Part shown: positions 14,586 through 35,149 of the stretch, one piece after another | How positions within the stretch are numbered: position 1 is the first letter of the stretch | Layout: the number at the start of each line of letters is the position of its first letter | Assembly (NCBI GenBank): GCA_003216255.1 | Contig: QCJD01000013.1 | Coordinates: 1-35,149 of the forward strand | Origin: Pelagibacteraceae bacterium AG-404-N13 | GTDB lineage: Bacteria > Pseudomonadota > Alphaproteobacteria > Pelagibacterales > Pelagibacteraceae | Reading direction: 5' to 3' | Length of the DNA: 35,149 nucleotides | The notes under the pieces: model-generated | What the model was told of the DNA's origin: nothing | Databases searched by the model: none | What the model saw: only the letters and a program-made list of their open reading frames with translations | Made by a program: the position numbers and the translations under genes

Positions 14586-15098
14586 ATGAAATTATTGAGA
14601 ATTGGAAGCCAAGGAAAAGAAAAACCTGCAGTTATAGATAAAGAGGGAAAAATAAGAGATATAAGTTCTTACATTAAAGATTTTGAACCCGAAACATTAA
14701 ATTTTGAACAAATCAATAAATTAAAAGAAATAAACCTAGATACTTTGCCTGAATTTTCTAATTCAGAAAGAGTTGGATCATGCATTAGCAATCCACGAAA
14801 GTTTATTGCTATTGGTTTAAATTACATAGATCATGCAAAAGAAACAGGCGCAAAACCACCTTCTGAACCTATTGTTTTCATGAAGGCAACAAGTTCAATT
14901 AGTGGCCCATTTGATAATATAGAAATACATAAAGATTCAAAAAAGTTAGATTGGGAAGTAGAACTTGGAATTATAATTGGAAAAGAAGCAAAATATATTT
15001 CAGAAAATCAATCACAAGATCATATTTTAGGATATTGTTTAGTAAATGATGTCAGCGAAAGAGAGTGGCAAATAGAAAAAAATGGGGCAATGGGTTAA
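14586..15098 (+). CDS. FAH-family hydrolase, N-terminal part before a frameshift
   Basis: This encodes 170 residues of a fumarylacetoacetate-hydrolase-family enzyme: SNPRKFIAIGLNYIDHAKE (around 80-98), the metal ligands of KLDWEVELGIIIGKEA (ExE), and VNDVSEREWQIEK, after which the frame meets a stop within five codons. The rest of the protein continues in the +1 frame at 15082. Removing one A from the A7 run at 15076-15082 would join the two into a protein of about 280 residues, the normal family length. Relatives act on acylpyruvates or on 2,4-diketo-3-deoxy sugar acids. Confidence 0.85.
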   Translation: MKLLRIGSQGKEKPAVIDKEGKIRDISSYIKDFEPETLNFEQINKLKEINLDTLPEFSNSERVGSCISNPRKFIAIGLNYIDHAKETGAKPPSEPIVFMKATSSISGPFDNIEIHKDSKKLDWEVELGIIIGKEAKYISENQSQDHILGYCLVNDVSEREWQIEKNGAMG

Positions 15099-15429
15099 AG
15101 GTAAATCTCATGATACATTTGGCCCAGTTGGACCTTACTTAGTAACTAAAGACGAAATAAAAAATATTAACAATTTAAATATGAGCTTAGATGTAAATGG
15201 AAAAAGGATGCAAACAGGAAATACAAACATGATGATTTTTAATGTTGACATAATTGTCTCTTATTTAAGTAAATTTATGACATTGCAAACCGGAGATCTA
15301 ATAACAACTGGAACACCCACAGGAGTTGGGATGGGTATGAAGCCTCAACAATTCTTAAAAGATGGAGATGAGATAGAATTAACAATTGAAAATTTAGGAA
15401 AGCAAAAATCAAAAGTAGCTCTTTTATAA
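15082..15429 (+). CDS. FAH-family hydrolase, C-terminal part after a frameshift
   Basis: The 115 residues carry the C-terminal half of the FAH fold: MGQWVKGKSHDTFGPVGPYL, the NGKRMQTGNTNMMIFN block, and LITTGTPTGVGMGMKPQQFL, a hallmark of FAH proteins. It lacks an independent ribosome site, and alone it would have no complete active site. It is best read as the second half of the gene starting at 14586, split by one extra A. An assembly or homopolymer error is possible; a real mutation or A-tract slippage are alternatives. Confidence 0.8.
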   Translation: MGQWVKGKSHDTFGPVGPYLVTKDEIKNINNLNMSLDVNGKRMQTGNTNMMIFNVDIIVSYLSKFMTLQTGDLITTGTPTGVGMGMKPQQFLKDGDEIELTIENLGKQKSKVALL

Positions 15430-32462: not shown

Positions 32463-33101
32463 TTAGTTTAATTCCGAAAGTATTTGTTCTGAGAGTTTTT
32501 TAATTTCTTCAGTTGCGGCGCCTTTTCTTTGCTTTTCAATTGCCGTTTTTCCTTCCCCCATTGATGAAGCGTATATTTGTCTATTACCAATTATTGTACT
32601 TACAGAGGGAACATTTAAACTTTTTATATATTCATTTGTTTTAATTATTAGTTTTGATCTTTGATTAGCTCTATTTATCTGTATCATAATTTTTTTATTT
32701 GCTTTTTTTGCAATATCTATAATGGCTTCTGTTGCCCAAAAATCAACGTGCGATGGTGTCATTGGGATCAAAACTAAATCAGAGGCTTCAATAGCAGGAC
32801 GTGCATCAGACTCAATTTTAGGAGGTGTATCGATAATTACTATGTCATGATCTTTTTTTAAAGTTTTAGACTCGTATTGAGCACCCCATAAACTTGCTGT
32901 CTTAAATGTTAAATTATCACTTGGTATTTTTTTTTCTGATCTTATCATAAACCATTTTCCTAGACTTCCTTGTGGGTCAGTATCAATAACTGCTACTTTA
33001 AAATTATGATACTTAACAAAACCCATTGCCAAATGAACAGCCAAAGTTGTTTTTCCAGTTCCACCTTTTTGTTGAGAAATAGTTATTACTTTTGAAAGCA
33101 T
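32463..33101 (-). CDS. ParA/MinD-family ATPase without a ParB partner
   Basis: The 212-residue protein starts at the ATG at 33101, giving KVITISQQKGGTGKTTLAVH with the deviant Walker A (KGGTGKT). A further ATG at 33128 would add nine residues unlike the family. The VAVIDTDPQGSLGKW and IIDTPPKIESDARPA motifs are Walker A' and B. Such ATPases position DNA or protein complexes using ATP-driven dimerisation. No parB is beside it, so it is probably not the chromosomal segregation pair. It leads the minus-strand operon and is divergent from the rhodopsin gene, with 236 nt between starts. Confidence 0.88.
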   Translation of the reverse strand: MLSKVITISQQKGGTGKTTLAVHLAMGFVKYHNFKVAVIDTDPQGSLGKWFMIRSEKKIPSDNLTFKTASLWGAQYESKTLKKDHDIVIIDTPPKIESDARPAIEASDLVLIPMTPSHVDFWATEAIIDIAKKANKKIMIQINRANQRSKLIIKTNEYIKSLNVPSVSTIIGNRQIYASSMGEGKTAIEKQRKGAATEEIKKLSEQILSELN

Positions 33102-33337
33102 TTCACATAATATATTTATTAAATGCATCTAGAAATAAAATTATAAATTCTAGTTCTACGCTAAAATATATTTCTAGTTAAAATTGTATTTTGTAATTGG
33201 ATAAATTTTTTTGGCACTATCAATCAGTTATTAACTTATAAAATATATATATAAAAAAAATATTATTTTTTGATTTTAAATAATGAGAAGCTGTTGAATT
33301 AATTAGGTTATTTTAAAAAATAAGGAAAAGCGGAAAT

Positions 33338-34039
33338 ATGAATAAGCTATTATTACCACAAGATATCGTTGGGGGATCTTTTTGGTTGATATCTGTTGGA
33401 ATGATAGGTGCAGCTATATTCTTTTTTCTAGAGAGAAGGCGTTTATCAGAAAGATGGGGGACAGTGATGACGCTAGTAGGTGTTATCGCTCTAATGTCTT
33501 CTATTCATTATTTTTATGCAAAGAACTTATGGGTACTAAATGGACAAGCTCCAACTCAATTAAGATATATTGATTGGTTGCTAACTTTCCCTCTCACAAT
33601 CTTAACTTTCTATGTGATGTTAAGATCAGTATCGGAAGTGAAAAGAGGAATGTTTTGGAGATTATTGGTTGGTACTTTGGTGTGGGTTATAGCTCAACTT
33701 TTGGGAGCTTACGGCTACATGAGTGTCACTCTAGGATTCTTAGTAGGAATAGTTGGATGGCTTTATATCATTGGTGAACTTTACATGGGTGATGCAGGTC
33801 GAGCTAACTCTTCTTGTAATAATGAAAGTGTTCAAATGGCATTTTTTGCAAATAGACTAATTATAACAATAGGTTTTTCAATTTATCATATTGGTTATTT
33901 TATAGAACATTTGGCCGGAGGAGCTAACATTAATAGTCTTAACGTAATTTATAATTTAGCTGATTTTTTAAATAAAATAATTTTTGGAATGATAATTTAT
34001 AGTGCAGCAATACAAGATACTAAGAAAGGAGCTCAATAG
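33338..34039 (+). CDS. Proteorhodopsin paralog, flotillin-associated type (DTT motif)
   Basis: The 233 residues form seven helices (about 12-31, 41-61, 73-95, 106-125, 129-149, 165-190, 200-224) with no signal peptide, unlike typical proteorhodopsin. Offset by 18 from green proteorhodopsin: H57 (H75), R76 (R94), counterion D79 (D97), T83 (T101), tuning site T87 (105), T90 in place of donor E108, D209 (D227) and Schiff-base lysine K213 (K231). In helix F, W197 is F180 and P201 is H184, and R174 lies within the helix. The loss of donor and pocket residues argues against an efficient proton pump. A flotillin gene follows by 14 nt. AAGGA at 33322-33326 precedes the ATG. Confidence 0.93.
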   Translation: MNKLLLPQDIVGGSFWLISVGMIGAAIFFFLERRRLSERWGTVMTLVGVIALMSSIHYFYAKNLWVLNGQAPTQLRYIDWLLTFPLTILTFYVMLRSVSEVKRGMFWRLLVGTLVWVIAQLLGAYGYMSVTLGFLVGIVGWLYIIGELYMGDAGRANSSCNNESVQMAFFANRLIITIGFSIYHIGYFIEHLAGGANINSLNVIYNLADFLNKIIFGMIIYSAAIQDTKKGAQ

Positions 34040-34053: not shown

Positions 34054-35149
34054 ATGACTAAAGGAGCAGATATAATAGCAGCAATAATTTTATTAGCGCT
34101 TGCAATAGCAATAATAGTTTATTTATTGCATTGGCTATACAGAAGATCTTCAAAAGAAGTTTCATTTGTAAGAACAGGAATGCTTGGAGAAAAAGTTGTT
34201 ATATCAGGAGGAGCATTTGTTTTACCTATAATTCACAACATTACTCAAGTTGGAATGAGAACATTGAGTATCACTATAAAAAGAGGTGGAGAAAAATCTT
34301 TGATTACTAAAGATAGAATGAGAGCAGAACTTGTAACAGAATTTTTTACAAAAGTTCCACCAGACCCAAGAGCAGTTTCTACAGCCGCTCAAACTTTAGG
34401 AAATAGAACCTTAGACCCAGAACATTTAAGGGAAGTAGTTCAAGGAAGATTTGCAGATGCTCTAGGAGAGGTTGCTGCCAAAATGACCTTAGATGAAATA
34501 CAAGAGAACAGAGGAGCATTTGTTAAACAAGTTGGAACGATAGCCAATGAATCAATAGGTCACACAGGATTAGCTTTAGAAACTGTTTCAATTATTTCTT
34601 TAGATCAGACACCAATTGAACAATTTAATCCTGCTAACACATTTGACTCACAAGGTTTAACCCAATTAACTGAACAGATAGAAAATAGAAAGAAAAAGAG
34701 AAATGATATTACCCAAGATACTAAAATCTCTATTGAAAATAAAAACTTAGAAACTGTTCAAAAAGAATTAGAGATTAAAAAAAATGAGGAATTCTCTAGG
34801 TACCAACAAGAAAGAGAAATTGCGATTCAAAAAGCAAATGAAAGAACAGAAACAATAAGACAAAAGGCCGAAAAAGAAAGACAAGCTGAAGAGGCTGAAA
34901 TTCAAAGTCAAGAAGCTATTGAGGTTGCAAAAATTTCCCAAAACCAAGTAATTGAAGTTGAAAGAAAACTTACAGAAACAAGATTAATAGAAGAAATAGA
35001 AAAAAGAAGAAAAGAACAAAATGCTCTTGAGCAAGACGCTGCACTAGATATTAGACAAAAAAATTTAGAAACAGAAATAAAAATTCTTAATTTAGATAAA
35101 GAAAGTGAGTATGCAAGACTAGAGAAGCAAAGATTAGTTGATACAAAAA
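34054..35149 (+). CDS. Flotillin/SPFH-family membrane scaffold, 3' end outside window
   Basis: The frame is open from the ATG at 34054 to the edge (365 codons). Residues 1-6 are short and polar, 7-28 form one transmembrane helix (IIAAIILLALAIAIIVYLL), then a basic stretch. The SPFH domain follows (about 36-205: VSFVRTGMLGEKVVISGGAF, FVLPIIHNITQV, EFFTKVPPDPRAVSTAAQTL). From about 215 on the sequence is a long Glu/Lys/Ala/Gln-rich coiled coil typical of flotillins (YqiK-like). Flotillins oligomerise under the inner membrane and organise microdomains. The pairing with the rhodopsin is the key context. The C-terminus is unseen. Confidence 0.9.
   Translation, partial: MTKGADIIAAIILLALAIAIIVYLLHWLYRRSSKEVSFVRTGMLGEKVVISGGAFVLPIIHNITQVGMRTLSITIKRGGEKSLITKDRMRAELVTEFFTKVPPDPRAVSTAAQTLGNRTLDPEHLREVVQGRFADALGEVAAKMTLDEIQENRGAFVKQVGTIANESIGHTGLALETVSIISLDQTPIEQFNPANTFDSQGLTQLTEQIENRKKKRNDITQDTKISIENKNLETVQKELEIKKNEEFSRYQQEREIAIQKANERTETIRQKAEKERQAEEAEIQSQEAIEVAKISQNQVIEVERKLTETRLIEEIEKRRKEQNALEQDAALDIRQKNLETEIKILNLDKESEYARLEKQRLVDTK

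Follow-up and report, generated by a model that had tools for sequence, protein, structure and literature searches.

The gene at positions 33338–34039 (+ strand) of the window, i.e., the whole 35,149-nucleotide stretch of Pelagibacteraceae bacterium AG-404-N13 analysed here, encodes a rhodopsin that, with reasonable probability, is not a light device but a chromophore-free, seven-transmembrane partner of flotillin, which would act in an operon for solute uptake and breakdown. It is near certain that the gene is a genuine Pelagibacterales FArhodopsin (FAR) of the DTT-T type already known from the literature (ISME J 2018; mSystems 2023). This type was described by Olson et al. (2018; PMC5864233) and received the name FArhodopsin from Haro-Moreno et al. 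(2023; PMC10308929), who assigned no function and had no cultured host. Our results go beyond the published accounts of FARs consulted here in the genomes where FAR is the only rhodopsin, in plasmid-borne relatives that lack the lysine and the aspartate, and in the catabolic operon context of these relatives.

The open reading frame starts with ATG and encodes 233 amino acids with a DTT-T motif and a Pfam Bac_rhodopsin match (E = 1.8e-28); the opposite strand contains many stops. Aligned with the proteorhodopsins (PRs) of SAR11, the protein has a shorter N-terminus and no leader. A maximum-likelihood tree separated 18 FARs, including PsFAR, from 25 PRs with a support of 100/99, and this split was found in 100% of the bootstrap trees. 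The window protein fell in the FAR clade with AG-390-L03 (L094) and PsFAR, outside the PR cluster, in agreement with the FArhodopsin identity proposed in an earlier note on this DNA. Its residue at donor position 108 is threonine (T90) and not the carboxylate of a DTE motif. The predicted model (mean pLDDT of 81) had its best solved-fold matches in PsFAR (PDB 9r21, Z 33.5) and the PsFAR mutant 9r23 (Z 33.4), at 56% identity. Among the changes relative to PR that extend across the FARs, E is replaced by A124, Y by G146, F by Y149 and G by E190.

Within the order, 8 of the 397 genomes carried this FAR type, the window genome included, with identities of 91–100%; below this group there was a gap, followed by ordinary PRs at ≤50% identity. 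The named relatives are single-cell genomes of Pelagibacteraceae (AG-430-A09, 98%; AG-390-L03, 92%; SCGC AAA288-N07, 91%). A phylum-wide sample added no further FAR at a strict cut-off, and the search of viral contigs and phage records found none. With the tree rooted at its midpoint, the deepest FAR branches were those of three alphaproteobacterial genomes of about 4 Mb (G750, G580, G673). One metagenome-assembled genome (MAG), casp150-mb.165, held both a SAR11-type and a HIMB59-type FAR (L105, L116), which suggests a chimeric bin.

In the window, FAR is followed on the same strand, after a gap of 14 nt, by the first 365 codons of a flotillin gene (SPFH/Band_7; 34054–35148, +) cut by the contig end. 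The window part contains the SPFH domain and shares 98% identity with a sister-genome flotillin of 659 aa; the full-length orthologue also has the Flot domain. A search of the window's own assembly for the rest of the flotillin and the cluster returned only these 365 amino acids at the contig end. Upstream, a spacer of 209 bp (33129–33337), presumably the promoter region, separates FAR from a divergent gene for a ParA-family ATPase (32463–33128, −). The spacer is AT-rich and its alignment showed conservation in short blocks only. The ParA-family gene flanks FAR in the sampled SAR11 loci of the main branch, but not in the sister branch (L112, L113). Scanning the window for Rfam families and tRNAs gave no matches. 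Elsewhere in the window, at 14586–15429 (+), a fumarylacetoacetate-hydrolase-like gene is split into overlapping reading frames of 170 and 115 aa with a frame change near 15090, which could be a sequencing error, decay or a frameshift.

The window contig ends inside flotillin, and the cluster beyond it is read from sister genomes. At 92 loci, wherever the sequence runs on, FAR is followed in unbroken order by flotillin, P129 (a 129-aa protein) and an alpha/beta hydrolase. The hydrolase was 84–93% identical across hosts, compared to only 50–71% for the FARs of hosts outside SAR11. In loci that do not belong to the main SAR11 branch, FAR is directly preceded by two ABC permeases. A sodium:solute symporter, a 139-aa protein, an N,N-dimethylformamidase-like protein and an MBL-fold hydrolase recur in the cluster, as does an Fe-alcohol dehydrogenase (Fe-ADH) in SAR11. 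The MBL protein of the SAR11 cluster, taken from a sister genome (L039) and not located on the window contig, narrowly passed the NCBIfam AttM model NF045700 (396 versus a cut-off of 390 bits); the MBL proteins of the 4-Mb and MAG loci were only about 30% identical. As to a dedicated 4-hydroxybutyrate dehydrogenase and SSADH of the blcABC/attKLM kind, the Fe-ADH scored below every equivalog cut-off, and only in Martelella did the SSADH adjoining the cluster exceed the cut-off of the SSADH subfamily. P129 and the hydrolase do not require FAR, for the pair stands alone in other alphaproteobacteria (adjacent, with FAR and flotillin absent, at L219 of G591 and L220 of G453). Therefore, FAR and flotillin seem to have been added to a catabolic unit.

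Could FAR have a purely structural role, as a ligand-free, chromophore-free seven-transmembrane scaffold for anchoring or shaping the flotillin microdomain? Such a scaffold would be consistent with the position of flotillin, directly 3' of FAR in every related locus where the contig continues, and with its N-terminal transmembrane segment YLLHWLYRRS, which is nearly invariant from SAR11 to rhizobia. However, it would leave unexplained why an ABC transporter, a symporter, a hydrolase and a lactonase recur in the gene cluster, and we regard this explanation as unlikely.

The same gene order occurs on plasmids of cultured rhizobia. A search of plasmid records revealed FAR relatives between an ABC permease and flotillin, annotated as 'bacteriorhodopsin' in Pararhizobium gei, Hoeflea and Martelella and unannotated in Shinella (L224, NZ_CP119410; L225, NZ_CP011481; L226, NZ_CP066788; L223, NZ_CP069303). 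These replicons, with rhodopsin homologues devoid of both the lysine and the counterion, belong to cultured Hyphomicrobiales. In P. gei, Hoeflea and Martelella the operon runs from an IclR regulator through P129, hydrolase, AttM lactonase, SBP, ABC ATPase and permeases to rhodopsin, flotillin, a hypothetical protein, an SSF symporter and FeADH, with an additional SSADH in Martelella. The ABC transporter is of the sugar type, and the lactonase of P. gei scored 416 bits against NF045700. Identities to the marine genes were 78–80% for the hydrolase, 64–65% for P129, 59–64% for MBL, 55–57% for Fe-ADH and 55–58% for the permeases, and as judged from these sequences the rhizobial genes are clear orthologues of the marine FAR-cluster genes. 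The rhizobial rhodopsins are only 32–37% identical to FAR; their membership rests on gene order and on the tree, where they grouped with the FARs with a support of 100/95, although their branches are long. Their lysine is replaced by Arg (Leu in Shinella), the counterion Asp85 by Gly, G122 by Arg and, in P. gei, Hoeflea and Martelella, Arg82 by His. With the lysine and counterion lost and an Arg at bR 122, they cannot be ordinary retinal proteins. The Dysgonomonadaceae record CP070278 (246,192 bp) is probably a co-culture contaminant: it is nearly equal in size to the Martelella plasmid NZ_CP066788 (246,197 bp), and both are from a cold seep.

Loss of the chromophore is also suggested by the retinal pocket of the window protein. 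Residues were numbered by alignment to bacteriorhodopsin (bR), with the key bR residue numbers checked by script. This check bore out the residues that the earlier note had listed: K213, the Schiff-base lysine (bR K216; codon at 33974–33976, + strand, as for all codons here), the counterion D79 (bR D85; 33572–33574), T83 (bR T89; 33584–33586), T87 (bR L93, the PR spectral-tuning position 105; 33596–33598), T90 (bR D96, PR E108; 33605–33607), where the proton donor is lost, F180 (bR W182; 33875–33877) and H184 (bR P186; 33887–33889). R76 (bR R82) and D209 (bR D212) were found as well. In two SAR11 FARs (L099, L111), Glu replaces Asp at the counterion (D79E). The note's 'R174' does not exist: according to the alignment, the arginine is R173 and is common to nearly all ordinary PRs, and hence not a special feature. 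Its tryptophan-to-phenylalanine and proline-to-histidine changes are both present, as F180 and H184, but they are restricted to the Pelagibacterales branch and do not define FARs, since HIMB59-type FARs, PsFAR and the 4-Mb genomes retain W and P. Absent from the note were the FAR-wide change of E to A124 and the three residues most important to the pocket: F84 (bR T90, V in PR; 33587–33589) and Q120 (bR G122; 33695–33697), which plug the pocket and match H84 and E120 of PsFAR, and the bulky W116 (bR M118; 33683–33685).

At bR positions 90, 118, 122, 182 and 186, the PRs (n = 47) have V/M/G/W/P and the SAR11 FARs (n = 50) F/W/Q/F/H; at the first three positions F/W/Q was found in 50/50 SAR11 FARs versus V/M/G in 47/47 PRs. 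HIMB59-type FARs combine F/F with W at bR 141 (n = 31) or with E at bR 122 (n = 5), and PsFAR and two MAG FARs plug the pocket with H and E. Compared to the PR mean (standard deviation 14 Å3), the summed side-chain volume of the pocket, a crude sum over 19 residues and not a cavity measurement, was higher by 146 to 200 Å3 in SAR11 FARs and by 238 Å3 in the main HIMB59 type. According to its PDB title, 9r23 is PsFAR H84V/E120G. Its makers thus reverted exactly the positions equal to F84 and Q120 of the window protein; what ligands the entries 9r21–9r23 contain is judged from their titles. The position-by-position comparison and the titles of PsFAR and its mutant thus agree with the reduced retinal pocket proposed in the earlier note. 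In line with a filled pocket, SAR11 DTT-T proteins expressed in E. coli showed neither retinal colour nor light-driven pH change (PMC5864233). We infer that the window FAR probably works without retinal; of the roles offered earlier (light sensing, a retinal-less function, a structural function), the evidence favours the retinal-less one.

Some observations point the other way. The window protein, like nearly all marine FARs, retains K213, D79, R76 and D209, so that retinal might be bound conditionally in vivo, and the SAR11 and HIMB59 genomes with FAR make retinal (BCD present). A photosensor or weak pump, with retinal on K213 in the native membrane, perhaps only together with flotillin, and used for light sensing in dim water, would account for these residues, including the conserved T83, for the presence of BCD and PR in the host genome and for the peak in SAR11 FAR abundance in the lower photic zone (PMC10308929). 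Yet, F84, W116, Q120 and H184 fill the pocket that such a sensor would need, no retinal was bound by DTT-T proteins produced in E. coli (PMC5864233), relatives without Lys or Asp occur in a like gene order, and no transducer gene was seen beside FAR at the loci examined. This makes a light-dependent role quite unlikely.

A proposal that assigns FAR to light indirectly is that FAR and PR form hetero-oligomers in flotillin rafts that tune the pump (mSystems 2023; PMC10308929). According to the same paper, each FAR single-cell genome contained a PR, across three marine host taxa. Our results partly agree: the source genome, of 1.17 Mb and 83% complete, encodes FAR and also the second, DTE-type PR that the earlier note proposed to look for (DTE-Q; C12:45445-46089), two rhodopsins in all, and an ordinary PR is present in most marine FAR genomes checked. 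However, FAR with flotillin was the only rhodopsin in G750, G580 and G673 (4.0–4.5 Mb, 96–97% complete), and also in two large MAGs, labelled Hyphomicrobiales and Chromatiales, and the 1.5-Mb single-cell genome AG-464-G03. Three further genomes of the G750/G580/G673 genus likewise gave a single rhodopsin match. The FAR-only hosts include two MAGs, and absence from drafts is weaker than absence from closed genomes. FAR without PR argues against the published pump-helper idea; FAR is not an obligatory partner of PR, and a helper role, already weakened, is very unlikely.

A search for BCD (Blh) in all six FAR-only genomes named above gave no match, and neither did a search for phytoene synthase and the RPE65 family in the two MAGs and AG-464-G03; hence, no route to retinal was found in the latter three. 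In contrast to this retinal-free picture, G750, G580 and G673 carry RPE65-family oxygenases, and the pocket of their FARs (L070, L071, L072) is unplugged (V/M/A), with W replaced by G at bR 145 and T, V or I at the donor position. Therefore, the FARs of these 4-Mb genomes may still bind retinal.

Comparison with sister genomes gave a dN/dS of about 0.01–0.07 (pairs with unsaturated dS). The window FAR is under strongly purifying selection and therefore works at something. A decaying, functionless paralogue might have been suspected from the lost proton donor and pocket residues, but is next to impossible in view of this selection, the intact gene in dozens of streamlined genomes and the published transcription of FAR (PMC10308929).

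We favour a chromophore-free partner of flotillin in a solute-uptake operon, along the following lines. FAR would have arisen by duplication of a proteorhodopsin, with loss of the proton donor (E to T90) and filling of the pocket by F84, W116, Q120 and H184; its seven helices therefore most likely fold with no chromophore. It is probably a pentamer, because the PDB entry of PsFAR has five chains. FAR would be made together with flotillin, within a widespread operon by which a small organic solute may be taken up and degraded in a first step; judging from the neighbour genes, this is plausibly a lactone, hydroxy acid or amide. As a partner or receptor in the membrane, FAR would then collect the transporter at a flotillin microdomain or gate the passage of the solute. 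We infer a physical interaction with flotillin or the transporter, where FAR may scaffold, sense or gate.

More tentatively, and at somewhat less than even chances, the whole FAR clade may have abandoned light. FARs would then be chromophore-free receptors or coupling proteins of a flotillin-organised operon for uptake and lactone or amide breakdown, spread from ocean to soil and root, with Lys and counterion finally lost on the rhizobial plasmids. If true, this would clearly illustrate how the fold of a light-driven pump can be put to a use independent of light, and in cells that are among the most abundant of the sea. The function of FAR is experimentally accessible through the cultured rhizobia, which offer complete plasmids with the FAR gene order, a destroyed chromophore site and a catabolic operon. 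The main text of the 2023 paper (PMC10308929) makes no mention of lactone or rhizobia, and none of the papers searched combines flotillin, bacteriorhodopsin and lactonase.

Compared to known systems, the window FAR is closest to the Pelagibacterales FARs of AG-390-L03 (L094) and AAA288-N07 (L119), which share the DTT-T motif, the lysine, the short spacer to flotillin and the gene order, and differ by ordinary amino-acid differences and in that the window cluster is cut by the contig end. The HIMB59-type FArhodopsin (DNI) is 70% identical to the window FAR and likewise has F84 and an adjoining flotillin, but it has N83, I90 and F116, has its pocket filled by W137 or, in place of Q120, by E120, and retains W180 and P184. 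PsFAR (9r21; 56% identity) shares clade, fold and the plugged positions 84 and 120; however, it has H84/E120 rather than F84/Q120, retains M116, W180 and P184, and has DTM instead of DTT. The proton-pumping proteorhodopsin of the same genome (DTE-Q) belongs to the same family at 46% identity, but has V84, M116, G120, E at the donor position and at A124, and no flotillin neighbour. The plasmid 'bacteriorhodopsin' of P. gei, Hoeflea and Martelella (34–37% identity) agrees with FAR in its position between ABC permease and flotillin and in orthologous P129, hydrolase, AttM, Fe-ADH and SSF genes, and differs from the window FAR by Lys to Arg, Asp85 to Gly, Arg82 to His and G122 to Arg. As to the operon, the blcABC (attKLM) system of Agrobacterium, in which AttM/BlcC opens gamma-butyrolactone (PMC5924552), has an AttM-family lactonase and an alcohol dehydrogenase in common with the FAR cluster. 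An IclR-family regulator is a further feature shared with the FAR operons of rhizobia, as is SSADH in the case of Martelella. Unlike the FAR operon, blcABC as described contains neither rhodopsin nor flotillin.
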